Assembly: GCA_000467715.1 (NCBI GenBank)
Contig: AJFK01000044.1
Location: 1-61,350 of the forward strand
DNA: 61,350 bases
Direction: 5' to 3'
Source: Hysterium pulicare CBS 123377
Lineage: Eukaryota > Ascomycota > Dothideomycetes > Hysteriales > Hysteriaceae
Shown here: positions 9,720 through 44,200 of the stretch, piece by piece
Position numbering within the stretch: the stretch's first letter is position 1
How the letters are laid out: every line of letters begins with the position of its first letter
The notes under the pieces: generated by a model
Told to the model about the DNA's origin: nothing
Databases searched by the model: none
The model's input: the letters and a program-made list of their open reading frames with translations, nothing else
Position numbers and translations under genes: made by a program

Positions 9720-10499
9720 ATGAACCCTCGTCGATCTTTTCTCCCTTTCTCCACACGAAATCTTCCTAGGATCTCAGTTCCGGATGAAGACGAATCTACC
9801 TTCGGGATAACTGGTAGCGACCTCGAAGTGAATATCCCTCCCGGGTCTGCACCACACGTTTGTAGACCTGGCACATTGTCCGAAATCCGTCGGCCCCTTA
9901 CATGGTGCTTTGAAAACACCGCTTGCTGGCCGACCATGGACATGTCTTGGACGTATATTCCATGGGGAGTCTGTCATATCATTTACCCAGATGGTAGGCC
10001 TATTGAAGGCGCAGTCAATGTGCGCCCCACAGGACCTCTGATCTCATGTCATATCGGCGACGGCATAGTCGTGAATGAGGAGGGAAAAGTTGTAGGGTGT
10101 TACAAGACATTCAACTTCAATGCCATCGATGAAGAGAAAGGAAGGCTGATAATGATGAGGAACAATATCCAAGCGAAGAAGATGCAGATCCAGCATTATA
10201 TCGAACGCCCTGAAGCCAATGAGTTCTCCAATAAGTTTATTGGGAAGATGTATAAGGATATCAACGAGCTGCAAGAGGAGCGTGATAAACTTCAAGAACG
10301 CGTTGGCAGCTATCAGAAGTTCATGATCTCAAGGCACCGAGTACCTATATTGGAGCCCGTCGATGGGACCATTGGAGAGAAGAAGATGGCAACGTATGGA
10401 AAGAAATACCGAGAGCATCTCGACCAGTTCAGAGCTGCGGCACAAGGGACGAAATGGAATATCAGAATACCCCAGTTCATGAGCTTGCAAGACGAATAG
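9720..10499 (+). CDS. Hypothetical coiled-coil protein
   Basis: Single-exon ORF of 259 residues; I do not recognise the family. It has no signal peptide or membrane segment. Residues about 60-130 look globular and contain Cys and Trp (ENTACWPTMDMSWTYIPWG, then CHIGDGIVVNEEGKVVGCY). Residues about 145-205 are strongly helical and charged (YKDINELQEERDKLQERV), probably a coiled coil. A basic C-terminal tail follows. The ATG is preceded by a clean leader with no in-frame upstream ATG nearby. The single long frame with natural amino-acid composition makes it a believable gene. Confidence 0.65.
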   Translation: MNPRRSFLPFSTRNLPRISVPDEDESTFGITGSDLEVNIPPGSAPHVCRPGTLSEIRRPLTWCFENTACWPTMDMSWTYIPWGVCHIIYPDGRPIEGAVNVRPTGPLISCHIGDGIVVNEEGKVVGCYKTFNFNAIDEEKGRLIMMRNNIQAKKMQIQHYIERPEANEFSNKFIGKMYKDINELQEERDKLQERVGSYQKFMISRHRVPILEPVDGTIGEKKMATYGKKYREHLDQFRAAAQGTKWNIRIPQFMSLQDE

Positions 10500-10918
10500 G
10501 GATTGGGCTTAGACCAATGGTAGGGAATATTTGGTTGAGTTCGTCTTCTCTGAGAGATCATAATTTGGGGAAGGATTGCTATCTGTAGGTTAAGAATCAT
10601 GGGATTTCAGGAATGACTTGCGTGTACAGATAACAGATTCTTGTGACATCCTCACTAAATGACTAATTGATAAACGTGTGACCTCATCTATAGCTATTCC
10701 AAGAAGTATCGCATCACCTGCAATGAGTTTGAAGCGGCAAACTCCTTCCACACACTCACTTGACCGAAAAACAAACACTTACCTGTGACCCTTGCCACCC
10801 ATAAAGTACCCACCGGCACACTCTCCACCCAAACCCACCACAAACACTCCCCATCTTCCATTACGGCCCACTCCACTCACACCCACATATAAAACCCACC
10901 AAGACCTCAACCTCACCA
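10500..10918. other. Intergenic
   Basis: The 3' flank of the coiled-coil gene and a C/A-rich promoter stretch (about 10790-10918) before the next start. No other signal is seen. Confidence 0.5.
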
Positions 10919-11329
10919 ATGCCTCCCAAGAACCCCAAAACACGAAAATCCCCCGGCTCATCAAAAAGCTCCGAGATCCTCCGCCAGGGCGCAACAAAAC
11001 TTCTCAAAACAATGTCTTCAGCCCAAAACACTTCCACTTCCACTTCCACCTCGACCACTCCATCCACCGCCCCCACCGGCAACACCTCCAGTACTCCAAT
11101 GACCAAAGATGATTCTTCCCGAATCCAGTCTGCCGAGGTACGTTACAACTCTTCCTTGTCCATTGATGATGGTTCGGTGCTGGCTTTTGATGAGAGGAGG
11201 AGAGCGAGGGATGAGTTTGCTGACTGTGAGAAGGATAAATCGGGGAATGACCCGGCTTTTGCGCAGAGGGCGCAGGCGGCGGGGGATAGGAATGCGAATC
11301 AGCAGGGTGAGGGAGAGACTAAGAAGTGA
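10919..11329 (+). CDS. Small SMP-like fungal protein
   Basis: Short hydrophilic protein. The block MTKDDSSRIQSAE followed by FAQRAQAAGDRNAN resembles small fungal proteins with an SMP-type (seed-maturation-like) repeat, in which an SRIQS-A segment is followed by FA-RAQ-A-D-NA. A canonical intron (gtacgt at 11138 to an ag at 11230, 93 nt) would bring the two halves directly together (SAE-KDKSGNDPAF) and give 105 residues. Unspliced, the frame stays open and gives 136 residues. The N-terminus is basic, then Ser/Thr-rich from a ttccac hexamer repeat at about 11029-11056. Role unknown; stress or desiccation roles are family speculation. Confidence 0.55.
   Translation: MPPKNPKTRKSPGSSKSSEILRQGATKLLKTMSSAQNTSTSTSTSTTPSTAPTGNTSSTPMTKDDSSRIQSAEVRYNSSLSIDDGSVLAFDERRRARDEFADCEKDKSGNDPAFAQRAQAAGDRNANQQGEGETKK
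11029..11056 (+). repeat. Hexamer simple repeat in coding sequence
   Basis: Three to four tandem acttcc units, decaying to acctcg, encode alternating Ser-Thr in the SMP-like protein. A candidate for length polymorphism. Confidence 0.6.
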
Positions 11330-12221
11330 CTTGTGAGGGTTGAATGTGTTACACTCGTGAAGAAGCATGGGCGTCGGAGATGAGACATATGACACGGTGA
11401 TTCTTTTTGGGGGGCTTTGGGTTCTGAAGTTTTCTGGCATTGCTTGTTCAACACGGGTGATTTATGGCTAGCTCGCTGTGTTTTGGTAGATATTTGGGGA
11501 TTGCGTTCTAATCAATTTGATCGTGCTGCTTGATGGTGTTCTTAGCTAGTGATCTCCCGTATGGGAAGGCTGCTCGCAAGAGAAATGACGAGGTCGATAT
11601 GCGTATATCACATCACGCAGTCTGACTTTTCCGCGTCGACAAGTTTTGTCCTCAGCGACGCGGGGTTTCTGTCTCTCCGCAAGATATATGTCTCAGAGAT
11701 GAGCAAGTGGATTTGTGGAACATCGTCTCGATGAATGCGATTCCGTCATTTGCTGTGGTTGTTGTTCAGGAATTAGAATTGCGGATAGCGAGCAAACATT
11801 AGCCGTCACCACATCAAGAAGAGCGCGTTCGCCAAATGTCATCATTATCCTATGCTAATCTAATAGGGGAAGGATTGAATAGACATGTCAATAGAGTTAG
11901 GGAATAAGAATACATCTGAACCATCATTTCTGAGGAATCCTAAGAAAGAAGTAATGCCGCCGGCAAATCGCAATCCGCAACCCTGAAAACAGGTAAGAAT
12001 TAGAGAGCCAACCTAAACCTTGTCGGGGTTTGTACCACGACCAATACTTTTCAATCCATCTCCATATGTCGTGAGTCTTCTTGAATGAGGGTTATGATTG
12101 CTGCGTAGAGCATGTAATTAGGATATAGGAAAGATAATGACTTCCGATAAGAAATGTAGTTTGTTAGAGAAGGTGCTCAGGACAACTGCTGTGATCCTAA
12201 ATGTCAACCTGGTCAGCTGTA
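11330..12221. other. Intergenic between convergent genes
   Basis: The 3' flanks of the SMP-like gene (plus) and the small secreted protein gene (minus). No coding sequence or structured element was recognised. Confidence 0.5.
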
Positions 12222-12832
12222 TCACTTTGAAAAAGTGTTGGTTGTGAGAAAATCCATACCGTTGAGCACCTTCGTAACCTGGCCACCTGGTGAGCCGATG
12301 ATCGTCATGTTGATTATTCTAGCCGTGTCCGCATTGGCACCGCACCAATACGAACGAATAGCGTCGTCCATGGGATAATACATGGAGTTGAGCTGAATGG
12401 GACCTTCTACTAGCAGGGCAAAGCTGAGGTCGAGGTCAATGTGAAGGTTGGTGCAGTTCCCGCTCATGAAAAAGGTGCAATTGGTTGGGCCCATGATCTC
12501 GAGAGAGGAGATGGCCGAGTCACTAGGGCGATTATTAGTTATGATCTAATGGATACGTAACGCATATTCTCCTAGATGTGGTTGGCGACCGAGGAGGTAT
12601 ACAAGCACATGAAGCGGAAGTGAACTTACAAGGGATCCTGAACAAGAACACATCGGTTGGTACCGAACAAGGGCAACCAGTCAGGCCCTGTAAGATTTTT
12701 ATCGATGGAAGCAATCCCGACTGTCATGTTCTGGATTTGACGAGTGACAAATTTCTCCGTGTCGAGAGGAGCACTGGAGACATAGGCTGTCAGGCAGCTC
12801 ACGAGGAGCGGCAACTGTGAAAGAAAACGCAT
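12222..12832 (-). CDS. Small secreted protein, putative effector-like
   Basis: Exons 12832-12630 and 12522-12222 with a 107-nt intron (gtaagt donor, ctag acceptor) give 167 residues. Residues 1 to about 20 (MRFLSQLPLLVSCLTAYVSS) are a textbook secretion signal with an Ala-Pro boundary. The mature part is small, with four Cys and five N-x-S/T sites (two NMT, one NLT, two NCT), so a disulfide-bonded glycoprotein is likely. A PGGQ-containing C-terminal segment follows. I recognise no family. Size, signal and cysteines fit the loose class of small secreted proteins that includes effectors, cell-wall and self-recognition proteins; no function is assigned. Confidence 0.7.
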
Positions 12833-13590
12833 AGTAATGGGAGAAGTTGAATTCGAGTTAGAGATTTGGGTAAATTCGGTCGTTTTTAGATGTGGTAGTA
12901 TTCTTTGGTTTCGGGAGGTTGTTAACGTGAGGTAAAGTCGATGGTGGAGGTAGAAATGAGAAATGGTCGGAAATAGTCAGACGTTTTAAAGCAATTGAAA
13001 AATGTTTCTTAGGTCGTGAAAGCGGATAGTGATGGAGTCAAACTTCAATGACTTCATCAAGCGGTGTAATCATCCATTCAACGCTACAGCATGTTACTGT
13101 GTAACGACGTCACTAGTGGAAAGGAAAACGTACAAGCTGGTGAACAAGAAGAGAGAGTGAGGCTGATTCAAGGAAATGTCGATCAGAGTGTGAGAGAACC
13201 GCATACATTCCTTGTATTCAATTCACTATACCGCAATGAGCAAGACTTGGTAACTAGATTCCTATGTGAACGTGACTAATTGGTTCTCTTGCCGTCGCCT
13301 CTGCGTCGTCTTCCATTTCTTCCGTGACCGAAGTAAGTCGGACTATGGAGAGCAAGTTACGATTATGATGCTGCCGATAACAAGGGTGATTGTTGTTGGT
13401 GAGATGAAGCGAGGATCGAGGAATGACGAAATGATGGAATGAGGTCTTATGCAAGACACGTGTTCACGTGACCATTTGCATACATCCATATCTATGCATC
13501 TTGAAGAGCCAGGCTGCGAAAATGAGAACCATTGTATTAGGGTACGAAGGGAACATAGACATTAGATTAACTATTATGGCAAAGCCAACT
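12833..13590. other. Promoter of the small secreted protein gene
   Basis: Lies between two minus-strand genes. A pair of CACGTG palindromes sits at 13457-13462 and 13465-13470, about 625 bp upstream of the secreted-protein start. No ORF is supported. Confidence 0.45.
13457..13470. promoter_or_regulatory. Double CACGTG (E-box) motif
   Basis: Two perfect CACGTG hexamers with centres 8 bp apart inside a 14-bp stretch. In fungi CACGTG is bound by bHLH proteins such as Cbf1 and Pho4-like factors. Spacing suggests cooperative or dimer-of-dimer binding; this is inference. Confidence 0.35.
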
Positions 13591-14589
13591 TCACGAGCGC
13601 TCAACCCTCTCGAATTCCTCCAGAGTATGATTCCAAACCTTCTCTCCCATCCCATTCTCCTGATACTCCTTCAAAATCTTATTTGCTGTGATAATACTCG
13701 AATCTGGATTCATGAGATATACACCACTTCCAATCGTGCCATCACTTCCCTTCGCCAATTCCGTCTCGCCAAGCCTTTCTCCCTTTCTCCCAAACTTTGG
13801 ATTCGTAGCGGCGTAAATAACCCTCTCTCCAGCTTCTTCAGCAGAGGATCCAATTAACCAGAACAAAGCTGGAACGGCCCAATCGACAACAGTTTGCAGG
13901 AACCATCCCAGCCCCGTTATTTTTAACCCAGTGCCATAGACAGCTCCAGGATAGGTATACGCGATGCTGATTTTCGCGTTCTCGGGCTTCTTCGCAAATT
14001 CTTCGAGGAACAAAGTAGTCAAACTACCAGATGCGCCCGCCGCATTACCAATACTGTAGTGATCTTTCAAGCGCCAGTCTTCAGGCCATAGTTGGCCTTC
14101 CATTCCGGCACCTAGGACATTGACGACACGAGGGGAGGGCGCAGCGCGGAGAAGGGGCGCCAATGAGTATAAGAAGCGCATTCGGGAGTAGTATCGAATT
14201 ACTGTAACGCGATCCAATCCTTCAGGCGACTCATCGCGGCCTGCGGAGACGTACCCCGGGCTCATGATTAGCAAATCGATCTTCTTTGCATCTTTAGCGA
14301 TTTGATCTGCTGCTTTTTCGGCGTCCTTGATAAGCGTGAGGTCGGTGGCCTGGATTGGTATGAACTTGGCGGAAGGATTTATCGATGTAAGGGAAGAGAT
14401 GAGTTTTTCGAGAGTTGCGGATGACCGACCGACAAGGTATGTTGTAGATGACCTTCCAATAGTGTGCTTTGTGAACGCTTGGAGGGCTGCGCGACCGATG
14501 CCGTTTGTCGCACCTACGAAGACAGCTGTGAGTGAGGTGGAGCTCTGGAGAACGGAATTGTTCTTGAGTATTTCGGCGTATTTGACCAT
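13591..14589 (-). CDS. Short-chain dehydrogenase/reductase (SDR)
   Basis: NAD(P)-dependent oxidoreductase with a Rossmann fold, single exon, 332 residues from the ATG at 14589. The cofactor motif is VGATNGIG at about 25-32, with LLIMSPGYVS as the NAG-like strand. The usual Ser-Tyr-x3-Lys catalytic site is altered: HYSIGNAAGASG gives Tyr-x3-Asn. That substitution is common in a fungal SDR subgroup that I recall from similar proteins. A PGAVYGTG segment lines the nicotinamide side. One hydrophobic segment (GWFLQTVVDWAVPALFWLIG) may contact membrane. The reading frame extends upstream to 14916, but those residues are not SDR-like and the ATG at 14589 is the natural start. Substrate unknown. Confidence 0.8.
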   Translation of the reverse strand: MVKYAEILKNNSVLQSSTSLTAVFVGATNGIGRAALQAFTKHTIGRSSTTYLVGRSSATLEKLISSLTSINPSAKFIPIQATDLTLIKDAEKAADQIAKDAKKIDLLIMSPGYVSAGRDESPEGLDRVTVIRYYSRMRFLYSLAPLLRAAPSPRVVNVLGAGMEGQLWPEDWRLKDHYSIGNAAGASGSLTTLFLEEFAKKPENAKISIAYTYPGAVYGTGLKITGLGWFLQTVVDWAVPALFWLIGSSAEEAGERVIYAATNPKFGRKGERLGETELAKGSDGTIGSGVYLMNPDSSIITANKILKEYQENGMGEKVWNHTLEEFERVERS

Positions 14590-15908
14590 GATGGAGGGAA
14601 GTTTTATTGATCTTTGTTTAGATGATGCTTTGAATAGTGATGAAGTATGGAGATTGTGAAGAGAACAGATGAAAGGCGACAAAGGCTCTCCTGTGATACT
14701 TAGATGGACGATTGATACGATGCGCAAATGGTTTCCCTTGTTAGATGGTGATGCACACAACAGGAGACTTGGTGTAGATAAAATTAAGACAATGTGAGTA
14801 TGTTGGATGGACAGGAACACACGTCGCTCTATATACCTACCTCCTGCAATGCTTTGCAATTTGTAAAGAAGGTGGATTAGTAGAATTGTTTCTAAGCTCG
14901 CGCAAAAGTTGTCCATGCCGAGTCGGAGTCGGGACGATTTCTTCAGAAGTCGGGGTTGTGCACTGGAAGAAGCCCCGACATGTTTGTCAGCGCCAAGAAG
15001 GCTTACTCAACGCTACGGCGGGTGTCATTACTCATCGTACTGCCCAGGTGCACTCCCTTGGCTGTACAAGTCTAGAGAGTATTTGTTGTATATGATACTT
15101 TCTAAATAACCTCAAGGATGGCGACTTTCTTTTATGTCTTTCTTAGAGTCCAAATTATCTTTATAGGCTGAAGAAACCCCGTGTAGTTGTATACCATCAT
15201 TACTCAACAAAAAAAATATTAGTATTATTACTGCTTCTAGCGCCCTATAAATCATAAGAGCATAAGCGAGCCACCATTAAACGTGTCCTGCAACCCAATG
15301 CATGGCGGTCAACGCCAGCTATGCCTTTGTTCTATTATTCCCATACTCCTGGACGAAAGCGGCAGAGCCCGCCCATACTATCCATTAATGCTGAGTCAAT
15401 TTTGCAGGTGCCGTGCAATCTCATAATCTTATGGAAGAAGTCCCACAAAATGGTAGTGTTGGAAATGCGTAAGTCCGTAGAGGAGATAAAGAGGTGTAGG
15501 GAAGTGAAGCCATGATACAGCGAAGCATCGAGCTTTAGGAAAAGAGGGAAATGGCTTTCTCATATCATTGCCGCTTCTAATCCTGTGCCCAGCTCTCGAA
15601 TGCCTCTGTTGTTACGATAGATGACAAGATCGAGTATGCCCAGAACTCAGTGTTCGTTTCGACGTGCGACGTTCCTGCGGTAACAGGCCCTGTTGACGAG
15701 TTTAGTCAGTAATTATACAGGAGAGAGGAGAGGAAAGAAATAGGGGACGCCGAAATATGGTGCATTGATGTCGTACAGCACGGCAAGTGCCATTATTCGT
15801 CATACTGCGAACTCCCTCGGCTGTACAGGTCTGGAAAGATACAGTTCCATATGCTTCTTTCTGAATGATCTTAAGGATGGCAACTTGCTTTAATGCTTTT
15901 TGCAGAGC
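14590..15908. other. Intergenic with decayed copy of the transcription-factor 3' end
   Basis: No ORF is supported. The stretch at about 15026-15175 is a diverged copy of about 15781-15930, the last exon and 3' flank of the adjacent Zn2Cys6 gene. The remainder shows no clear signal. Confidence 0.45.
15026..15175. repeat. Diverged direct repeat of the downstream gene's 3' end
   Basis: Aligns in the same orientation with about 15781-15930: shared anchors include the ggctgtaca-gtct stretch, the ct-aaggatggc-act stretch and a terminal ggctg or gactg. By eye most mismatches are transitions, the signature expected from repeat-induced point mutation of duplicated DNA. Confidence 0.5.
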
Positions 15909-18255
15909 CTAAAGCGGCTTTGTAGACTGTAATAACGAAGGTGATATGCGCAGACCTACCCTCAGAAAACGACAAATCATGACATCCCGTGTGCAGTGAA
16001 ACATTTAGGGCATTGTGCGGAGGCAAAGGAAAGCTTCGATACTCACAAGCCATATCCAACTTGAGGTGATGGAGCATGTCCCACCAGTTCCACTCCACAG
16101 CTCCATGAATCAGCTCTTCTCTCGACTCAGTGCTCAGGGTTGTATTATTATCAATCATAGCCGAGAAGTTATCCAGATCGAACCACGGTATGTCAAGGTC
16201 AAGCTCAGAGCTTATCGGTGGCATTGGCGATGACTCCCGAGACTGTGAAGAATATGACTGTTCGGCAAACGCGGGTAGTGGGTTGGAGAAGGTTTCTTTA
16301 AATCTTGCAAGCAGTAGTTTGCATAACTCGCGTTCTCCACTACCGGGGGAGGTCACCAAGGCTAGGATTATGATCGGTACCAGAATGTATCTAAGGGCCG
16401 AAGGGTCGAGTGATCCGGAAAGCGTCGACAGCGTAGATGCGAGAGTGGAGAAAGCTTCATTATGTATCCTGTAACGATTATCGTGGAGGTTGGAGATTGA
16501 TGCAGAACCTGATAGGCGGTGTTGAGAGCTCTGCACAGTCAGAGTTGAGCGATCGGCGCTTGGCTCTCTGGAGCTACTCTCGAAAGCGTATTCCGTGGTC
16601 TCGACCTGAGGGTATGGTGAAGGGTACGGAGAAATTTTGGGAAACGTCTCGTCTGGTACTTCGGGGTTTCTGCTGCCAGACTTTTCCAACGTCAGCGTTG
16701 GGATTACAAGAAGTGGAAAGGCGACGTACGGTGTCCGCTCTGCCAAGAAACAGGTGCCGGAGAACAAGTATGATAGTTGCATTCTTCCAAGCTGTAGCGG
16801 CAAGCGTCCAGTTTTGGACCTGCAATGGGGTCCTATATGCGTGTTGATTAGCCTTCATTACCATTTGATAGACAAAGTTCCTTACGCCACGAGCTCTTCA
16901 TAATGTTCACGAAGCTCTTCTATCCAGTCTGCTTCTTGGAATCTGAGAGCCTCCAGGAGAACCGCGTCCCGCCTGACTAAATCCTGTGGAACGTTCTCTA
17001 CTTGACCACTAAGCAGGCTAGCAGCGGTAGACCCCAAATCATAGAAGACAAGAGTAAGCTTGGACGGACAAGGATTGAAGCATTTAGACTTCATGAGAGG
17101 TGCTTCTGTGAGGACCTGTATGGATCTACGAGTCGTCGTTTTCCGCATCGTCAGAGGTAGGTATGAAGACGCCATTAGCAGCGTCTCGAAGTGTGCGTGG
17201 TGGAAGAGGGATAGATGCAGGTACGGATATCGTTCAATGATGGCTTCCGTGCCGCCGAGGAAGGAAATGATTTCTTTGCAGCCATTGAGATGCATTCTCC
17301 ATCTCGTCATGCCGTTTTCGAAAACCTGTGTGATGGTTAGCCTTAAAAGCTCCAGCTTTGATTGTCCGCTGCAGACGTTGTCGATGGACCGAGTCCCACG
17401 TACATCCATAGCGAAAAGCAATAGCGAGTAGCAATACATCATATCGGGGCGCTGTTTCGGAGGGTTTCTTAGCAGGCCGTTCAGGCGGCCATAAACCTCT
17501 GCTTTAGTCTCGAGAGCAAGGCGATAGTACTCCCGAGAATCAGGATTCCGCATAGCCAAATGAACAGCCGAGATTCCAAGAATGCAGTTCAACATCTCCT
17601 TGGGAATTTCTCGCATACTGTCGGGAGACAGCGATGCGACTGGGCGGTCGATGAATGCAGGTTGCCCAGTTTGCGAAGCTTCGGAGCAGATAACGGTGTT
17701 GTCTAGGTGATAGTCAGCTACTGTGGCGGGTAACGTATCTCCCGGAGAACCATACGATACGCCATCAATTCCAATAGTGCCGCCTCGCTCAGAGGGAGAT
17801 CAGGTTGGACGTTCTGGATGCTTGGGGATCCGAAATACTCGCTTTCTCTTATTGGCGATTGTTGTGACGGTTGCGCCTGGGCTTCGAACCTGTTAGTTCT
17901 CCTTATCGAATATAACCTCTTCGTTGGAATGGAGCATTTAGGGAGTCGTGCAGCCAGCCAACTTACCATCAGCCACTGGTTGAGCTTTGCCTTTCAACTT
18001 CCCCCTAACCGCCACACCTTCTGCCCATCTCAATGGTTTTTGATAGCCTAGACACTGGACACCCTTCTTTGCACACTTCGCACATGCAGGCAGACTTCGG
18101 TCGCATTTGACGTGACGACGCCTGCATGTGTAGCATGGCACTTCAGATAGCTCCGATAGATTCTTGGAGGAAATTGGTAGTATCGTGTCGGTGGGAGTGT
18201 TCCCGCGCGAGGAGCGGTCCTTGGATCTAGGAGACCTGGTATTCGGATGCAGCAT
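15909..18255 (-). CDS. Zn2Cys6 fungal-specific transcription factor
   Basis: Nuclear binuclear-zinc-cluster regulator, about 675 residues in six exons: 18255-17963, 17889-17756, 17702-16886, 16832-16730, 16680-16047 and 15955-15909. The DNA-binding cluster is C-x2-C-x6-C-x6-C-x2-C-x6-C at Cys 41, 44, 51, 58, 61 and 68, followed by the linker [17 protein letters not shown]. The middle domain ([20 protein letters not shown], then [19 protein letters not shown]) matches the helical fungal transcription-factor domain of the ACR-2/Fungal_trans_2 type. Introns 2-6 are canonical and phase-consistent. The first junction is not: the best donor (gtaagt at 17966) gives the wrong phase, while a poorer gt at 17962 restores it. 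If the last intron is retained, the protein ends at 15871. A canonical tactaacacag just upstream suggests a 5' leader intron. Targets unknown. Confidence 0.75.
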
Positions 18256-21200
18256 ATTCCAAGCTGTGTTAGTAAAACTCGTAAGGTCGTATAACGTCGA
18301 ATCTTCATGTATTATCCACAAGCGGCCACACTTTGGCCTTTATACGGATATACCTTTGGATGAGGGCGGCCATGGAGTCGGAATAGGGCTGAATGAATAA
18401 AGCTGATAACCGTTTCGAGCTGTAAGGATTTGCTAGACGCATTGAAACATATACCGGGCATTGACGAGACACACGAAGCAGAGCAACTTGTGCCGGCCTG
18501 GTATTCGACGAACTTGGACGTAATTGGACAACTGCTTATCCCCTGGCCTACTCTGTCATTTTTAGATTAAACCCTGCATGCTTGAGCGGCTTACGAAAAA
18601 CGAAGTGGACTAGCTGCATTGGACCTAGTACGCTTTTTCGCTTTTTTTAATAACCTCTTTGGACCTGGCGCTGACAAAAATATCGAGTCCGGCGTGCGCT
18701 TAGAGTACTCCCATGCGCGACTTATTGTGGCAACACGAAGAGGCTCGTGAGATATTGCTGCTTGTTGCTGCCATTGGCATGTTGCAATAAGGCTGGCTTG
18801 TGGCTGGCTACGTAGCATCAAGTCGCCATCGTCCGGGGATAAAAGATACAACTGTGGCCTCGCTCTGGCCGTTTAATTGCCTTTTAACTGAGGCGCAGCG
18901 CTCCTCGACGTCATATTCAGTATTAAGATAGCTGAGCAGACCGACTTTCCCCTAAAACTATAGAAACCCGCGGACATACAAGACTGGTCGACGTCTAAGA
19001 AAAGATAAACAATAAAGAAATACGGCAAGTTGATAGTTCGCTTCTCGATTCGGAGTACTTACAGACCAATCAGCTTAGAACCTCTCCGTTTTCGAGTTGC
19101 GATATACTAAGTTTATACGGCTCAATTGAGTATTGAAGTAGAATCGCGATACGAATGGCAACACGCTGAACGCCAAATGCCCGATAATGCTCGAAGTACG
19201 CCGGCTAATGATCGGTGAGTACCTGGTACGAAGCTGCAGGTCGCGCTGATCGCTCGCTCACGTGACAGAATGAGCATGACCCGCAGCTTCGAGTCATCAG
19301 TATAACGGAAAGCCTGAACGCATGGGTAAAATGAAACAAATACAACTACAACGCTGACATGTTTCCAGATATCACGTCTACTGATCAGCTAGACTCTTCA
19401 ACCTCAGTGAAGCCTGTTATCATCCTTCAATTGCCCAGCTTCTCTGGTATCCCCGAATGCGCGGTGAGGAAGAGTATGCAGAACCCACTGCCACCTCCTG
19501 TACGAAACCCCATGGCGAATGGCAGCAGCCCTGGCGAGGACCGTTATGACGATCCAGAAACTATAAACGATGTCTCAACCGATTGACGATGAGCCTGTTT
19601 CATGGGCCGGACATCACGCTCAAAGAAGGCAAAGCAAAAGGAAGGAGCTGCATACCATATTCTAGGACCAACCAATAAGAGCTCCCACTCACCTTACCTC
19701 TCATAGTGATGGGCATTAAACAAGGACCTCAAAGATATCTTTTTTCGGTGTCGCTTTCTGTAAGTTAACAACGAGCTGCGTCGCGGGGCGTTATACCAAA
19801 TCGGAGGCAGAGTTCTCGATCTCTAAGGACATCTCCTAGCTTTTCGGTCTCGCATGCAGATTACCTCCTATAACCTCCGCTGTTTTCCACTCGTAAAGTC
19901 CCTGTAGCATTTTCACTTTTCCCAGAAATTTTGTCCAAGGGTTGACAAGAACAGAGCCACGTAGCCTAACATATCGCCTTATGGACGATCTAGAACGAGA
20001 AAGCCCGCGAGCGACGAGTTTCACTGAGAGTTCCCAATTGCTTGACTCGTAATTGCACCCAATTTTGCAGCATTTTCTCACGTAACCAAGCCAGTCATAT
20101 CGAATAAAAGGAGATTGCGAGTCAATGTCGGCGCTTGTGTAAGCCTGCTTGTTGACATCGCGGTGTCGGGAATAGGTGACTATTTTGTCAACATGGAAAA
20201 GATTGGTCTGCGTTCTTGGTCTGCACGAGAAATTTGGTCGAACCATTCTTTTCGCACCTTCGGAAACCTTCGGACGACAAGTGGAAAAGCTTTAGAGAAC
20301 CACTGGTAAAAGATACTGTCATGCTCGAAATGACCAAAGGTCGGCGAAGCAGAAGACGGTCATTGCTTGGGCTGGAAAAACGAAGGTGACTACTTTGAAC
20401 TCATCGGAGTGACGCGACCGATGGGGTAGCATCAATTGTACGTTCAGCCAGCCCGTAACATCATCTCAGATCTAAACTCCAGGGGTCTAGTAGATTAACA
20501 GGGCGTTCTGATCAAGAAAACAAACTGAGTCTTACTTGCATGACGGGATTAGTTTTCTTAATCAAGAAAGTAACAATCTACTTGGTGGAACTGCGGGATC
20601 TAATTGATATTTTCAGCATGATGGTGAAGAGCTTATAGGTAAGTTTGAATTTCAAATTCGAAGGTAGTTGGTCGTGTTAAGTTCCTGATTTCTTCGTGCC
20701 TCGGTGTTCTCCACTTCTTCTACGTCTTCATGATCCTCCTCATTGCCATCGTTACTGATTTTGCATCTAGTCTCTTCACCGTTCGCTTTGTCGCTCTCAT
20801 TGCCTCTAGTTCAGCCTCCAATCCAGTCCTTAAGGTCGTCCAGAACATCATCCGATGATTCGCGGCAGCGAAAGGCCTTCCTCTTGTCACTCTTTCCGTC
20901 TCCGTAGCTTTAGGGTAGGACGGTGAGCTAGGGATTCACTAAAACTCTTCTGTCCCTTCACTAATTTCATACCTAATAAGTTGTGTGAGACGTTTTGAAC
21001 GCTGCCAGTTCTGGTGAACAAAGTATGTAGGCTAGCACTTCGGCAAGTCATCGCCTTATCCAAATCCATTGCTGTAAACTGGCGAGAGCTTTGTACTTCC
21101 ACAATATTCGTGCAGATGTGATTGCTCAACGGACTATAGAGGTACAGGGTGCGGGTTTCGGGGCGGGATTGATTTGCTCTATGTCTGAAATATACAGTTA

Positions 21201-21629
21201 GCTGAAGCCCACTCTAAGTACCGAGGAAATGCTTACCTTGAGTTGAGCATCGGCTTGCCAGAGGGCGAGATTTCTGGAGCAAATTCCGATCACATTGTTC
21301 CTGGAAGGTCTGGTTCTTGGTTGGTTTCAACGGAAGCAAGCCAAGACGATCCAAACGAGACCATCTATAGGATAGTATTCGCTTACGATAGAGAATTACA
21401 TGATAAACAGGGCTTACATAATGCTACGCTATTCAGGCTTCCCATGTTAGTTACGAGAAGTGTGAATCCAGAAGATGTTGCGTCGTTGAAGGTGCTGGGA
21501 AACTTTTCGCGAAATCTTGGCCGTTTCGGCGAAATGATTTTGCGCAGCCCGATTCCGATGCGGATCGCAGAGCTCCGTGCGGGGAGAAGGTTTTCTCAAG
21601 CTTCATGCGATAACACAATTGCTCTTGGA
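18256..21629. other. 3.4 kb without a supported gene
   Basis: Head-to-head spacer between the Zn2Cys6 gene (minus) and MSS1 (plus). A 75-codon frame at 19359-19586 has no recognisable features and no good splice partners, so I do not call it. A CACGTG motif lies at about 19259. No tRNA or repeat family was recognised. Confidence 0.4.
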
Positions 21630-24671: not shown

Positions 24672-24695
24672 CTAGTTGTAGCCGCCACGTCCCAT
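24672..24695 (-). CDS. Seven-residue mini-ORF, second copy (MGRGGYN)
   Basis: ATG-to-TAG frame encoding Met-Gly-Arg-Gly-Gly-Tyr-Asn, identical in protein to the ORF at 24853-24876. At the DNA level it differs at the third positions of the Arg codon (CGT here, CGC there) and the first following Gly codon (GGC here, GGA there), and in the stop (TAG versus TAA). The context acacaATGG has A at -3 and G at +4, a good initiation context. No other AUG occurs in the 157 nt between the first copy's stop and this start. Function unknown; a secreted or signalling peptide, or a translation-regulatory element, are all possible. Confidence 0.6.
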   Translation of the reverse strand: MGRGGYN

Positions 24696-24852
24696 TGTGA
24701 CGATGTCGTGTCGGTTCTTTGAATGAATAGGGCGCCTCTTGGCTGAATGGGTTGAGTGTGGGTTTGGAGTTGTCGGTTGCGACTCAAACGGATTTGGATG
24801 GAGAACCGGCGAGAGGAATTAGGTTCCCGGAGTTAGATGGACAGTGGCGAGC

Positions 24853-24876
24853 TTAGTTGTAGCCTCCGCGTCCCAT
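24853..24876 (-). CDS. Seven-residue mini-ORF, first copy (MGRGGYN)
   Basis: ATG-to-TAA frame encoding the same heptapeptide as 24672-24695. On the minus strand it is the first AUG after a TATA-like element at about 25191-25197: the leader of roughly 300 nt contains none, although about five would be expected by chance. Context is ctccATGG (G at +4, no purine at -3), weaker than the second copy. A repeated peptide with only synonymous change inside an otherwise non-repeated transcript is the pattern expected of a translated, selected mini-gene. No signal peptide, CaaX box or precursor is present; the peptide would be made directly. Confidence 0.6.
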   Translation of the reverse strand: MGRGGYN

Positions 24877-25310: not shown

Positions 25311-28300
25311 CTTCTTATATCAAATAAGAAACCCTACCCTCCCAGCTTCCTACGCCAGAGGCAGAGGGTGCATGCGCCAGTTTCCGCCTTACGAGCAGGC
25401 AGGGTCCAGCGCGCTGGGTATGGATGTGGGATGCGATCGGACCAAAATGCACCTTGTCTTGTGCGTCCGCGTGCGCTTCGTGGCTGCAGGCATCGAACAC
25501 AGTCTGTGTGTGTGTGTAGGTATGTAACTCCCGGCCAGCAGGCAGGCATCTGAGAGTCATAGCGCCGGCGCCGCACCGCAAGCACCTATTTTCTCTCCGG
25601 GCCGGGGGGCAGCGCAGGGGTCCAAGCCAAGCCTCAGCCGGTATCTCACTCGAGTTAGACTTGAGAAAACGGTTGCATTCCGTGTGAACCAGTCGTGCGT
25701 TTTTAATCGCTGCTCTGCCGCCGGGGGTGTGGCTATGGTGTGGTGAGAAACGACAGCCACATCCGCGGCTGCGCTGAGAGGGGGATCCTGGATTAGCGTT
25801 GCATGAGGGCTTTCGGGGCCCTTGCTGTGCAGCACGAGAGAGCGTGGGAGGCAGGGTTTTCGAGGTGGGCATGGGAATGGGTGAGGTGAGACGGTCTTTG
25901 TGCTCTCTTTCTTGGAGGGTGTGCAACTGGAGATGCGGATTGGAGGGTCGGATTTGTGACTATTTTGCTCCACGGCCACGGAGAGTGGGTTTTGTGTCTC
26001 TTCTATGGAAGAGGCGAGTAACGTCTTGGTGTATAATCTTAGGAATCAGTTTCTTTGAGATGATTCATGCTTCTATCGTCACGGGCGAGATGCTTATACA
26101 GCGCTGCTGGAAGAGTTGCGGATCTGCATCTGATTCCATACCATTAGGTATGTATGTGTATTCTCATAAGGGTCCATTACTAATTAACGTGGGGTGCGCA
26201 AGAGAGACCATCGAAAGAAAGAAAGGCCGCAAAATTCACATTCACCCATTCCTCAAAAGAAGCGCTGAACGCATCGTCATTCGTCGGCGAAAATATACGC
26301 GATACAGTCATACAACATCATCCGTACCCTGCCCCTGTCAGTTGCAGCCATGCAAGAGTCCGCGAATAGGGTACTTTCAGATTTCCGCTACACATATTTC
26401 GCTATGCCACGTTCTTTGTGAATCCGCGAGGAGGGTAAGACCGTTGATCCGCGAACGCCATCGTCCCTCATTCCACGAGCCCTACCCATGCATCGTGTGT
26501 AATCGGAAGACTGGCATGTATTGCAAGGCTCATCGCCAAAGTTATCCGTCGGCGGAAAGTGTCACAATCAAGGAACTTTTCGAGAATGTGGGATCATTGT
26601 GCATCGTTACCAGAAAGGGAATTTGACAGATTTGCTGTGCAGCCAACGCTAAAACAAGAATATCCCGATCGCGACGTTGCAATGAGTTCGGATTGCCGTG
26701 CGGCCTCTCAAAAGCCTGGTCCACCCTATCAGAATGGTATACTCAGCATTCACATGTCAGTCAGGTGGTGCAAATACCAGGCAAAGACGATCTACTGCAA
26801 GTCGGACTCATTGACGAGAATGCAGAGTATAATCATATGCGCAGAGGTTCTGGTCTAGGTCTTTGAACTCGCCAGCCAGTCGCAGTTCATATTCTACTTT
26901 TGTTTCGAGTTCAGCAGACATATGCGCAGTAGCGCAGGCAGAAAAGGTTATCAGCTCGCATGGTCGAGGAGAGTTGCTCGCGTGCGATCAGCTCTCTGAC
27001 AAGACCCAGCTGTCGAGGCATCGTTTCAAAGTGTACGTTTCATACACGGCATAGACAGCTCTCGGTTCGGCTCCAACAGGGGCACCGGTTACTCGCATAA
27101 TCGTTCGTTCCTCCAGTTGCTATCTCGCGAAGGTTCGTCGCACAACACAGCACGTACCTAAAACCCCCCAGCCACTACTGTTCACCGGAGTCGCAAATTG
27201 TTCGGATTGATTTCCGGACTCTCGCTCCAGGCAAGCGAAATGCTCGTACGCTTCCAATTGCCTTTCTATTTCTGCTTTCATCGTTACGAGTTACGAGTAG
27301 TCTCCATTCCGCGCACGGATGCCAATCCTTCAAACACCACGGTGCCACCCAATCGGCTAACAGAACACCCATCCGAAAATACAATCCTCAATCAATGTTC
27401 GGGAACCTATCCCAAGGCAAGCAATACCCAATAAACTGCTTGGCGACCCATTCGGGATACCAATAAACGTTCAATCCCGACATATGAAGACTTTCAACCT
27501 TCCCAGATTAGCAGGTTGACACTTCTCCCCTTACATCGCACAGATCCCACAGTCGGGTTTGCACCCAAGAACTGCACACCAGCCTCGTTTGTGCGACTGG
27601 AGCCACGAGGTTTAGCGATGATGAGGGATGATGAGAGCTTACACGGGGACAAGGCTACCCGATGCCGTGGAACCACACGGTAGCCCTCGATTGGAGATGC
27701 CCCTTTTCCTCTTCTTTATTGTTTCGTTTCATGTCTATCTTTGGGGGCCTGCTTTTCTAGTCTCTGGGCTATGTGGGCAGGTTAAGGCATACTCCATATT
27801 GCTGCTTTCTCTTGTCCAAGCATGCTGGGTAAGTGAACGAGCAGAACGAAAAAGGCATATTCATCCACTTACCCACCCAGCCTCTTCATTCTCGTCCGCC
27901 CGTTATCGTCTGCAGAAACATGAAGCCTTAGTTTATCGACCGAGAACTCCTACCCTATCATCACATTCCAGATTCCCCAATGCGACAACATCAATCCATT
28001 GCAAATCCATTATCGCAACACATTCACCCCATATTTTCTAATCAGTGTCACTCATGCAGCCTACCGCCCAAACCCAACTCACCGGCTCTGATTCTCACCC
28101 GACAGGAAGGGTCATCACCAGCGGGCTGCAGGTACCCCGAACCCACCTCCATCAGCTTGCATTGCGATGGTGGTGTGGACCCGCAGATCCAAAAATACAT
28201 GCCATACGCGATAGACGCGTCTGAACATGGTCACCCTAGATTGGTGGCTTGCTGTAGGGCTGACTGAACGACCAGGGCTGTGCCACAACACATTGTCCCG

Positions 28301-32117: not shown

Positions 32118-33503
32118 TTACGCGCTGTATGAACTGACGTAGTACTGTGAACGCTTGCGGTCAGGCATACTCTCTAACTTCGGGTTGCGAGAATCAAGTA
32201 ACAAGGGGGAAAGCAGAGCCTCACATACCGTCAACACCGATTCATCCTCGCCATTATCATTCGGCAGGTACACATAGAGAATTAGCGCATGTTCGTGGCA
32301 GAAGCCTAGCAGAGCGTTAGAACAATTGGACGTCGGAGGTTGAATAGAGGTCTCGAAATCGGCCGGCGCCAAACTCTCGATGGCTGTACAAAGAACCTCA
32401 ACTCACATGCGATGACCCTACCACCGAGTCTGCCGACACTCATGACCTTTCCCCAGTCTCTTCCATCTATCCTAACCGTTGCCCATCCCTCTTCGCTGCG
32501 CCCATCTGCACTCCCCAATGCCTTCATTCGGGTACTAGGATGCTCTTGAAGACTTTCTTCTCCCCCAACCATTTGACTGGGGTCCAGTTCGGGATTGCTT
32601 AGATCGGTCCACACCGATGATATGTTCATCGCGTCGGTCCGGATGCTCAATTTGAGGCATCCGTGCATATTCGCCGACATCTCCAACCTTGTCCGTTGAG
32701 ACGAGGCAGACGCAGCAAGACTCGCCTTCGCCCCGACGAGCGCTAATTTATTGAATCGGTCACTGATGCTCTTCAGCTGCATCAATGGTGGAAGTATGAT
32801 GTGTACATCTGGCTCTCGACAATGCGGCTCATGCAAACCAGCCACAGTCTCCGGGGAGAGTACCCTGACTGGTATTTCCTGCGTGACGATTGTCTCGCGC
32901 TCTCGTCCAAATGATGAGTCAAATGTGCTATTATCAAAGCCATCTTCATTATTGGTGCCTGTTGTGGGGAACGCGCCGTACGACGTGCTTGATGATGAGG
33001 TCACGATAGTGAGGGCGAGGAGAGGGGTGTTGTCTCTTTTCGTCAGGCGTATCTGGGCTGAGGTGGCGTTCAGGGCAGACTTCAGAGCTCGATGGAGGGA
33101 GGTAAGAGGAACTTCGAGGTTTATGACGTTATTTGCTGCGGATTGTATATTGTAGGTTTCGAAGATGGTGTCCTACGCGTCGCGGGGCCGGATGAGTACG
33201 AGGGTTGGAGAAGATTGGGAAGGGCTGAGCTCACAATTGACATGACACTACAGCAAGCACTGCTTAGCATTGTTCGGGCCCCGAGGAGGATAACATACTT
33301 ACGCCCATACCTGAGTGCCCTGCTCTGGGATCACGGTGAAGCACGCCTGCTCCTCGCTGAGCTTCACCCATCCTAAAGGTCCCAACGAGTTGAGCGACGC
33401 AGTAAGTTCTGTTCACGATAGTCAGAGCTTGTGTCAATACGACGGAGGGTGTATGCATACTTGTAAAGGTTGTGATGTTCTGGATTGACGCTTTGAAGCG
33501 CAT
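32118..33503 (-). CDS. HUS1: HUS1, 9-1-1 DNA damage checkpoint clamp subunit
   Basis: Nuclear sliding-clamp subunit that, with Rad9 and Rad1, is loaded at damaged DNA to activate the ATR-type checkpoint. Six exons: 33503-33461, 33408-33303, 33247-33235, 33172-32407, 32305-32229 and 32144-32118, giving 343 residues. All phases agree. The start MRFKASIQNITTFTK, then EEQACFTVIPEQGTQVWA, INLEVPLTSLHRALKSA, VHIILPPLMQLKSISD, CFCHEHALILYVYLP and the ending VLTYYVSSYSA follow the Hus1 family from end to end. The third exon is only 13 nt and supplies part of AVMSID, joining QVW to TIFETYNIQ in frame. Skipping it would shift the frame. A 60-residue Ser-rich insertion (about 105-150) is a fungal feature. 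Confidence 0.92.
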
Positions 33504-41226: not shown

Positions 41227-44200
41227 TCACCACTCCAGTCGCACGTCAACCCAACGCTCTCGTCTTCTAAGGCCACAGAAATACTCTGATCCGTCCGATT
41301 CGTCGTCAGACCCGGGAGACTCTTCGTTGAGGCTGACGGAATAACCCTTCATAGTCCAGTCATCATTTCGCAGCAGCATTGCCCCCCAAGATCCAGTCTT
41401 CATCATCGCGTCCATCACCGACTTCGAGAACCAAAATGTGACACCAGCGGCGCAGTTCAGCTCCTCCCAATCAACAAACTCAAACACGGTAATAATGACA
41501 ATCCCCTCGTCTCTGAGTCTTTCGAGTCCGGTCTTACGGGTAGAAGGTCTATGATCGAGCAGCACATCACGAAGGAAAGGTTTCTTCCGTGTAATGTCGA
41601 TACTGCAACGCTTCGCAAGATCAAGATTGACGAGCGCAATAAAATAGTGAGGAGTCCCGTCCATGCCCTCTTCTGGCAGATCATTCCAGTCTATGTGGTA
41701 GCGATAGATATCGTCAATTGCTATGAGAGGTTGGGTCGTTGTGAAACCAAAGGGAATAACAGGTGCCCAGATGGATGCTTGGCACCGGAGTTCAGGCGCA
41801 AATGGAAGGATCGACATGTCCATTGCCTGGTTTGCTGCTGGATCATCATCCAGTGGGCGAGGACATGAACGCGGTGGGCGGGCTTTTGTGGTGATGCGAC
41901 CAGAAAGGAGGGATGTGAGCATTGGAGAGATCCAATGAGCCGGATAACCTATCTCATGTAAGTGTATCAAAAGACGGAAAATGAACGTCATGTTCAAGGT
42001 CTGCCAGACTAGGGTCTTTTGTTGCTTCCAGTCGCGGGGAAAGGGGATACCGATGTTGAGGAACATGTCGTAGAACCAGCTTTCGAATTCGTTCTTTTTT
42101 AGAAGTTTCTCAAAAGCGAGCTTTGTTTTGTCCTGTTGGCGCCAATAGTAGTACTTGTGGACATCATATTCTAGGTCTTTGTCTGGGATAAAGGTTTTGT
42201 CTATTTGTATGCAGTTGGTCACGGCGGTGATGAATCCGTTCTCCTTGGGACGCCCAATGTGTTGCTTGAAATAACGATCTAGCCTTTTACTTCTCTCGTA
42301 TGCACCAAATTCCATCATGATATTGAATGTGATGGCCGAGGACAACTCCCCTCTGCTGGCGCGGGCACCATACATCAGAGCAGGAAGGGGCCCCCCAATG
42401 TAGTCACTAACGAATCTTGATGAGCTTTGTGATCCATACAGGACTTGCTGAGAAAACTTACGGGATGTTACTGAGATGAATGCGGTCGTATTTCGAGGGC
42501 AGTTCGCGAACATCTTTGTCGCCTAGCTCTTTCGTTTGCCGATGAGAGAAGGATCCCAGGCGATGCAATGCGTCCATCTGCTCGAAGACATCCGAAATGG
42601 TGAGCTCGATAGACAAATTCTTTTTGAGATTTCCGAGGGCATCCGCGTATGCGCCAAACGTAATGACTGCCCAGTCATAGAGCTGCTTTGGCTCCTTGGG
42701 AACTTCGTGCTTTAGGAATGCCGTTGGAAGAGTCTGAAATGGGTCCCAATGACAAGTCGGGGCAACCGGGCCCCAAGTCTGAAACGCTATCTGATATCCG
42801 TTCGCCTCCATTCCTGCCACGAGGTCCTCGAAGTTTACTATTGAAAGGTTCGGTTGCCATTCTTTATCGATGTGTTTTATAAGGTCCGAGATGGGTCCCT
42901 CAGGACCGTTGGCAAGAGCGTTTCCCAGATTTCGAGCATGTTCAGCAAGCTTCTCGTCGCGCTTCGAAAGTAGCGAAGGCGGTGGAAGAAGGACGGCTGT
43001 TCTTGCCCACAGTTTTCTTTCTTCCAGAATTTCTTCGGGAATCGCGTAACTGGGCTCACGTTCCTCCCAGTCAGTCTTCACTATCATTTCTCTGACATAT
43101 TTGGTAGACCATATGCCGCTTGGTGGCTTTTGCCACTCCCGCAGAACCTCGATGATAGCAGCTGCGTCCCTCCTGTAAACATATAGCCAGGGCGGCATTT
43201 TCATATAACCTGTAATCATACGAATCGCGAAAGTAATATATCGCTGAAACAATTGATAGGCGTATTTTGGCATGATGACACTGAATGATACATAGAAAAG
43301 GGTCGAGATAAGAAGGTGTTTTGCCTCCTCCGAATCGTCCTCATGATCTCCAAAACCCGGAGACTCCGGAATGTCGCCCAAAATGAGCAGCACAACAAAG
43401 AGGCGGGCAATTATCATCGGCTTAATATCGCTGCAAGTGAAATGTAGCTTTCGATGCCGGTAGTACTTTTCCAGAACCCTTTGCTTTTCCGCAGCTGACG
43501 ATTTGTTCGAGGCTTCGACTCGACTCATGAAGGTCTCAGGAGCAAGCAAAGTCGAGAAAAGGTTACGCGCATCGCCGATTCCACCGAAAAGAACAGATAT
43601 GGGCTCTTCTATATTAGACTTATAATAGAACATGTCAGTATCTACTTGCATGTTAGTAGCGATATCATGTCCAAAATTCGGAGCCATGAATGCTGCACGC
43701 CTGGATATCGGCATTAGTAGTGCAGCCAAGGACAACTAGAGCTTGGGAAGGGAATACATGGACGGCAGGTTTCTAGGTAAAACCTTAATGATTCTTTTCC
43801 AATGCTCCTTCAATTGTTGTGTGGTCAATTGACTGGCTTGGGCAATGCTACATTTCTGCAGCGTATGGAACTCCGGAATATCAGACGGTGTTCGACTCAT
43901 AGTCTCTTGGAATATATCCCATTTCCTGAGGTACAAGGAGCACTTTGCGATCCTTAAGCCCAGTCTGGATTTCCTTGGATCTTCTTCTAAATTGCATAAG
44001 ATCATGGACCTTGCTGCATATTCCATCGCTAGCATGTACCTTCCGAGCTCGAAGTAAGCGGCACTGAGATTGGAGAGTGGCCGCAGGTCCTTCGGGGCGG
44101 CATCGCTAGCTTTCTTGTAGAAGTTTACAGCTAAAATGGATAAGGTCAAAGTGAGACTTCTTTGCTAGAGTGACAATACCTTCAGAAATTCTACCGGCTT

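Follow-up and report, generated by a model that had tools for sequence, protein, structure and literature searches.

The window analysed here, i.e. the whole stretch of 61,350 nucleotides of Hysterium pulicare DNA, encodes the heptapeptide Met-Gly-Arg-Gly-Gly-Tyr-Asn (MGRGGYN) twice on its minus strand. This raises the question of whether the repetition arose by chance, provides a free peptide or belongs to the leader of an mRNA. A preliminary description had favoured the free peptide and saw in the locus a polycistronic micropeptide gene that is organised like insect tarsal-less. From the comparison of two loci within one genome we arrive, with moderate confidence, at another answer: the frames are unlikely to be a product of chance and would form a uORF cassette with a conserved peptide in the leader of an mRNA, embedded in a predicted regulatory RNA stem.

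Three copies of one heptapeptide frame

To characterize the repeat we compared the two frames base by base. Mini-ORF 1 (24876-24853, minus strand, ATGGGACGCGGAGGCTACAACTAA) and mini-ORF 2 (24695-24672, minus strand, ATGGGACGTGGCGGCTACAACTAG) were both recovered to the base, each reading MGRGGYN followed by a stop. The two frames share the codons ATG, GGA, GGC, TAC and AAC for Met, the first and the third Gly, Tyr and Asn. They differ at Arg (CGC in mini-ORF 1, CGT in mini-ORF 2), at the middle Gly (GGA, GGC) and at the stop codon (TAA, TAG). As previously claimed, these differences (3 of 24 bases) all fall on third positions and are all synonymous, and the flanking DNA is unrelated, with 10/40 identical bases upstream and 14/40 downstream. 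The copies are spaced by 181 nt on the same strand, and the 157 nt that separate them do not contain any ATG. At position -3 mini-ORF 1 carries a T, i.e. a weak start context, compared to an A in mini-ORF 2 (a good context) and a G in the third copy introduced below, which would fit a leaky use of the first frame.

That such a pair is unlikely to arise by chance had been asserted before, and shuffles, a census of mini-ORFs and a third copy in the genome agree with it. Scanning the window with a degenerate pattern and up to two mismatches gave two places, both being the mini-ORFs, while the maximum in 100 dinucleotide-preserving shuffles was zero. The window contains 1433 mini-ORFs that start with ATG and span 5-40 aa, and MGRGGYN was the sole peptide repeated among them; as a control, 60 first-order Markov resamples yielded two repeats in total, both of 5 aa. 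When ten further genome stretches (in total 149 kb) were included in the census, the third MGRGGYN appeared, and other repeats were seen only in two stretches that overlap each other.

In the genome of the fungus itself (37.2 Mb, 596 contigs) the pattern was found exactly three times, namely in the window pair and in a frame on contig C580 (39441-39418, minus strand, ATGGGCCGTGGGGGATACAACTGA), which spells MGRGGYN but departs from the pair in its wobble bases and ends in the remaining stop codon. At this base composition 0.001 extra copies were expected, and the reversed pattern used as control gave none. Over the three copies 6 of the 24 columns vary, four of them wobble positions and two positions of the stop codon, such that all three stop codons are in use. 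The flanks of the C580 copy and of the window copies are at background, with 10-15 of 40 bases identical in all comparisons. Since two copies were chosen for their agreeing peptides and the third was found with the peptide pattern, it is in part a consequence of this choice that all differences are synonymous. This bias does not affect how rare the third hit is, nor the evidence from the upstream element and its pairing (see below). Within this one genome, three copies at two loci with synonymous and stop-to-stop changes in background-level flanks support the conservation at the peptide level that had been proposed.

We also searched more widely. With a relaxed genome pattern, in which AGR was allowed for Arg together with up to two mismatches, 6 places were obtained (three exact and three with two mismatches) versus 5 for the reversed control, which places the three degenerate relatives at chance level. 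The degenerate relative MARGAYN* (C596:75788-75765) falls into this class and was rejected, and block A, the upstream element described below, was not found there. The single match in genome_contigs, located in a bacterial MAG (L021), has a frame that runs on through TGG and was taken as chance; exact matches of the pattern in viral_contigs amounted to zero. A string search of one open library of 5.39 million papers did not find 'MGRGGYN', and among the matches listed on fungal micropeptides, uORFs and smORFs no title or abstract start described it.

The C580 copy is positioned in front of a long reading frame of 458 codons, whose ATG lies 68 nt behind the end of the mini-ORF and is the next one to follow. 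In the C580 region an ATG that comes earlier, at L004:7115, opens 12 codons (MYSSLSYLAAQS) and is a candidate leader frame only. As read from its sequence, the 458-codon protein contains two C2H2-type motifs, both close to the C-terminus. Its Pfam matches to zinc-finger-like profiles were weak and below the curated cut-offs, and the best PDB match was a CTCF finger (E 0.011). For the finger region three matches at 46-48% identity were obtained elsewhere in the genome, in addition to weaker ones. Among 5.8 billion proteins no relative was detected, neither for the whole ORF at E 1e-3 (5226 candidates) nor for the finger region at 0.01 (101 candidates). Accordingly, the gene either evolves rapidly, is restricted to its lineage or has relatives that the word-based search overlooked. 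Judged from these sequence features, the C580 mini-ORF is probably the uORF of a C2H2-type zinc-finger ORF, which in turn would encode a probable gene regulator. At C266 and C409, the two closest zinc-finger matches, approximately 1.5 kb of upstream sequence contained no MGRGGYN-like frame. As a side observation, three separate C2H2 finger-region matches lie within 12 kb on contig C547 of the same assembly (G000, 9985-21604, plus strand), one of them with internal stops; they possibly represent a local cluster of finger genes.

The putative transcript of the window pair

Next to the question of conservation stands the one of what the window pair is part of. A TATAAA box (25195-25190, minus strand), which may serve as core promoter, lies 313 nt upstream of mini-ORF 1. 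It is followed by a putative 5' leader of 294 nt (25170-24877, minus strand; start assumed) that holds no ATG, is poor in G (11.6%) and rich in C/T. Mini-ORF 1 and mini-ORF 2 are the first and the second ATG after the TATAAA box. Judged from the sequence, the proposal that both reside on one transcript appears plausible. A consensus splice scan of 25200-23400 (minus strand) returned two donor-like sites (24184 and 23676), both of which are downstream of the mini-ORFs.

Downstream of the pair, ATG frames of 28, 204 and 117 codons follow. The first of them (24645-24559, minus strand, MSILDIPLHLRRGETASTPSLDDTITTA) belongs to the third ATG, starts 26 nt after the stop of mini-ORF 2 and is a possible downstream ORF of purely putative coding status; the frame of 204 codons is opened by the fifth ATG after the TATAAA box. 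For the two larger ORFs we obtained codon-use scores of -0.11 (204 codons) and -0.06. For comparison, MSS1 reached 0.08 and the zinc-finger ORF 0.04; the score was trained on unvetted ORFs and separates weakly even for real genes. The one larger downstream ORF that was scanned had no Pfam match. By codon use and Pfam, no recognised main ORF follows the window pair.

The region is bordered by the MSS1 frame with its MnmE domains, which ends at 23489 (plus strand), and by a Hus1-like ORF (32309-33172, minus strand). The eight best-scoring relatives of MSS1 are dothideomycete proteins of 71-73% identity, which assigns the fungus to the Pleosporales or their vicinity within the Dothideomycetes. 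Pfam at E 0.01 gave no match in four larger ORFs located between MSS1 and the Hus1-like ORF or over the mini-ORFs. The earlier statement that no conventional gene occupies these 8 kb is likely to hold as far as these four ORFs go; the stretch from 26.6 to 32.3 kb also has ORFs of 100-140 aa.

Several further features were seen in the window. A perfect inverted repeat at 25309-25289 (minus strand), TGCCTGGA-ATGAC-TCCAGGCA, contains TGACTC. A TGAGTCA at 25181-25175 and another TGACTC at 25559 are likewise located in the vicinity of the presumed transcript's TATA box. We take these TGACTC/TGAGTCA sequences to be Gcn4/CPC1-type bZIP sites; sites of this type were absent from L004:8200-6790 in the C580 region. 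Just upstream of the leader both putative promoters carry an ATAAA..TCTCC arrangement (ATAAAGGTCTCC at 25194-25183 of the window, minus strand; ATAAAAGATCTCC at 7149-7137 of L004, minus strand), a likeness that may be due to chance. At 17938-18339 (minus strand) an open frame contains a fungal Zn2-Cys6 cluster (Zn_clus, E 1.6e-11), and a 425-codon open frame at 42461-43735 (minus strand) matches DUF4470 (E 2.4e-9).

Two identical peptides on one putative transcript that is devoid of a recognised long ORF and of any ATG before or between them, as well as the presence of the same peptide at three genome places, speak for a polycistronic micropeptide gene. Its window transcript would make free MGRGGYN that acts in trans in a tal/pri/mlpt-like manner, with C580 as a second source. 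Only in its outward arrangement, with several copies of a tiny peptide on a putative single transcript and no recognised long ORF, does the locus resemble insect tarsal-less/polished rice/mille-pattes. However, the peptide is a different one: the core motif of the tal/pri peptides is LDPTGXY, and this core is absent from all three copies, which read MGRGGYN. Furthermore, one copy is found before a long ORF elsewhere, a complementary RNA arm is present, and the organism is a fungus and not an arthropod. The free micropeptide reading loses ground because one copy sits as an ordinary uORF at 68 nt from a long ORF. The upstream element and its predicted pairing, which are described in the following section, point to cis regulation and fit a cis cassette better. 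Of the tarsal-less-like proposal the two copies, the putative transcript and the lack of a recognised long ORF stand, but a free peptide acting in trans is in our view unlikely. Also the length of seven residues lies in the size range of known short uORF peptides, such as the six or eight codons given for the amd motif in PMC5640933.

A shared upstream element and its predicted pairing

Apart from the mini-ORF the two loci have a second element in common. Block A (24853-24838, minus strand, AGCTCGCCACTGTCCA) comprises 16 nt, the first of which is the last base of the mini-ORF 1 stop codon, and is identical in 15 of 16 bases between the window and the C580 zinc-finger leader. Its core AGCTCRCCACTGTCCA lies 142 nt upstream of mini-ORF 2 in the window and 125 nt upstream of the mini-ORF at C580. 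In the 37.2 Mb it occurs in exact form at 2 places, both beside MGRGGYN, where 0.03 would be expected. The same two elements were obtained from a blastn comparison of the window (25700-23401, minus strand) with the C580 region (L004:7600-5000, minus strand), which is blind to the reading frame and was carried out on the transcript strand only. It provided two collinear hits at E 0.005, one for the mini-ORF (21/24 bases) and one for block A (19/21 bases; AACTAAGCTCGCCACTGTCCA in the window and AACAAAGCTCACCACTGTCCA at C580), the next best hit having an E of 0.74. A place on C29 that matches block A with one mismatch (the control also gave 1) was rejected; the 3016 bases inspected there contained no 7-codon frame with at least 4 MGRGGYN residues.

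For the window, block A is predicted to form 13 bp with GGACGTGGCGGCT, which belongs to mini-ORF 2, and two U are bulged out. The duplex energy of -22.4 kcal/mol was attained in 2 of 1000 cases when block A was shuffled and in 29 of 1000 when the peptide was recoded synonymously. It was matched by 0.04% of the 40890 window 16-mers. Among 6000 random pairs with equal spacing one did as well; these pairs have the average and not a matched composition of the window, a choice that flatters G+C-rich arms. Within 25170-24672 block A was the best 16-mer partner of mini-ORF 2. At C580 the corresponding energy of -16.6 kcal/mol was reached by 64 of 1000 shuffles and 250 of 1000 recodings as well as by 15 of 6000 random pairs of the same kind, and a 16-mer that overlaps block A by seven bases paired slightly better (-17.8 kcal/mol).

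In the structural ensemble the core pairs formed with a probability of 0.93-1.0 at both loci, for all three stretch lengths at each. The outermost pair of the window helix reached 0.88-0.90, and both bulged U as well as the final base were mostly unpaired; at C580 block A did not pair with the mini-ORF over its first six bases. When the fold of the whole stretch was compared to shuffles, a z of -2.29 was obtained for the window (4 of 200 as good) and of -0.84 for C580 (33 of 200). The helix at C580 is preserved via a one-base slip, and the sole differing base of block A is not compensated, such that the two loci compared give no covariation. According to these model calculations both loci would carry an arm that folds over the mini-ORF, a prediction that is weakly supported at C580.

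The conservation of block A and its complementarity to the mini-ORF, seen in the window as well as at C580, would also suit an element that acts at the RNA level. Such an element, either a structured motif in the leader or a long hairpin of the small-RNA type, would conserve block A and its complement, with the ORF being incidental. Several results argue against this. ATG, length and stop are kept in three copies despite three stop codons and four wobble changes, although this is partly built in by the way the copies were picked. Mini-ORF 1 has retained the peptide despite its poor pairing with block A: the duplex has -12.8 kcal/mol, 827 of 1000 recodings were as good, and the pairing was not predicted in the ensemble. 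No Rfam family was found at gathering score in the window, L004 or L011. We therefore consider an incidental ORF improbable. Least probable of all is shared ancestry without present function, according to which an old leader-segment duplication left remains that, with the help of chance, spell the same peptide: only two short blocks common to both loci exceed background, and transcription and translation of the frames are presumed, but the flanks are at background while the two blocks are near-identical, and a third copy was expected at a level of 0.001 only.

A proposed leader cassette and its known counterparts

The reading that we favour, a conserved-peptide uORF cassette embedded in an RNA stem, would work as follows. 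MGRGGYN* represents seven codons plus stop at a fixed place, which would be under peptide-level selection and onto which the upstream 16-nt arm is predicted to fold. A fixed length and a fixed residue beside the stop are to be expected of a heptapeptide that acts as a nascent chain while the ribosome terminates, in the manner of the AdoMet decarboxylase hexapeptide and the arginine attenuator peptide; seven codons are near the lower limit for nascent-peptide action. At C580, where the cassette is placed directly before the C2H2-type ORF, it would most likely throttle translation of the zinc finger, with ribosomes that translate MGRGGYN* being held or lost at its stop codon. A stem that covers or abuts the AUG would tune the frequency at which the mini-ORF is used.

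In the window, a ribosome that ends or pauses at the stop of mini-ORF 1 would cover block A, free mini-ORF 2 and couple both frames. We infer this coupling from the geometry, because block A starts on the mini-ORF 1 stop codon. The window pair would then constitute a tandem cassette on a putative transcript that has no recognised main ORF, the nearest candidate target being the 28-codon frame. This transcript may also be an ORF-less regulatory or peptide-making RNA. A more far-reaching and doubtful idea is that the tandem heptapeptide uORFs form a two-step switch, in which the ribosome at the first stop covers the arm that locks the second frame and MGRGGYN* both senses a signal and relays it downstream along the mRNA. 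This cassette would be shared with the zinc-finger regulator, and the window transcript would perhaps be a stand-alone, ORF-less version that acts via the peptide or as a sensor RNA. If the favoured cassette is real, the occurrence of one heptapeptide in two unlinked leaders, in one of them as a tandem, along with a complementary arm would unite control by a nascent peptide and by RNA structure in one cassette. The three copies also allow a locus that has a regulator ORF downstream to be compared with a locus that lacks it.

Ribosome-stalling uORFs of the conserved-peptide type include that of the AdoMet decarboxylase hexapeptide MAGDIS, which acts at termination. The arginine attenuator peptide is longer than seven residues and is encoded by a uORF of the gene for the small subunit of carbamoyl-phosphate synthetase (arginine synthesis). 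MGRGGYN probably shares with both that a short peptide of fixed sequence resides in a leader before an ORF; sequence similarity is lacking, and stalling as well as a ligand are hypothetical here. In contrast to the gene controlled by the attenuator peptide, the C580 ORF has C2H2-type motifs and did not match a carbamoyl-phosphate synthetase domain. For fungi, PMC11550727 presents the arginine attenuator peptide as a conserved-peptide uORF that stalls ribosomes.

A combination of uORF and RNA structure is found in the amd motif of fungi, in which, according to PMC5640933, a uORF of six or eight codons overlaps a conserved structured RNA in the leader. There the peptide ends in A(V/F)(A/V)EL, the RNA forms a two-stem junction, and in more than nine species the gene carries an amidase annotation. 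Measured against this description, MGRGGYN has seven codons and not six or eight, and a different ending than A(V/F)(A/V)EL. It is combined with a long-range stem, whose 16-nt arm is placed 125-142 nt upstream, with a zinc-finger-type ORF and with a tandem copy. Since peptide and structure differ, the cassette is not a member of the amd motif; it would be organised in the same way provided that the pairing exists.

Plant conserved-peptide uORF groups are found preferentially on transcription-factor genes, as stated in PMC2075485. The C580 locus is similar to these groups in that a putative peptide-conserved uORF precedes a transcription-factor-type gene, and differs from them in its mere seven codons, its fungal origin and the antisense arm, with a conservation that is known from within one genome. 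Here, a peptide that is conserved beyond its nucleotides was observed between the paralogous copies of this genome.
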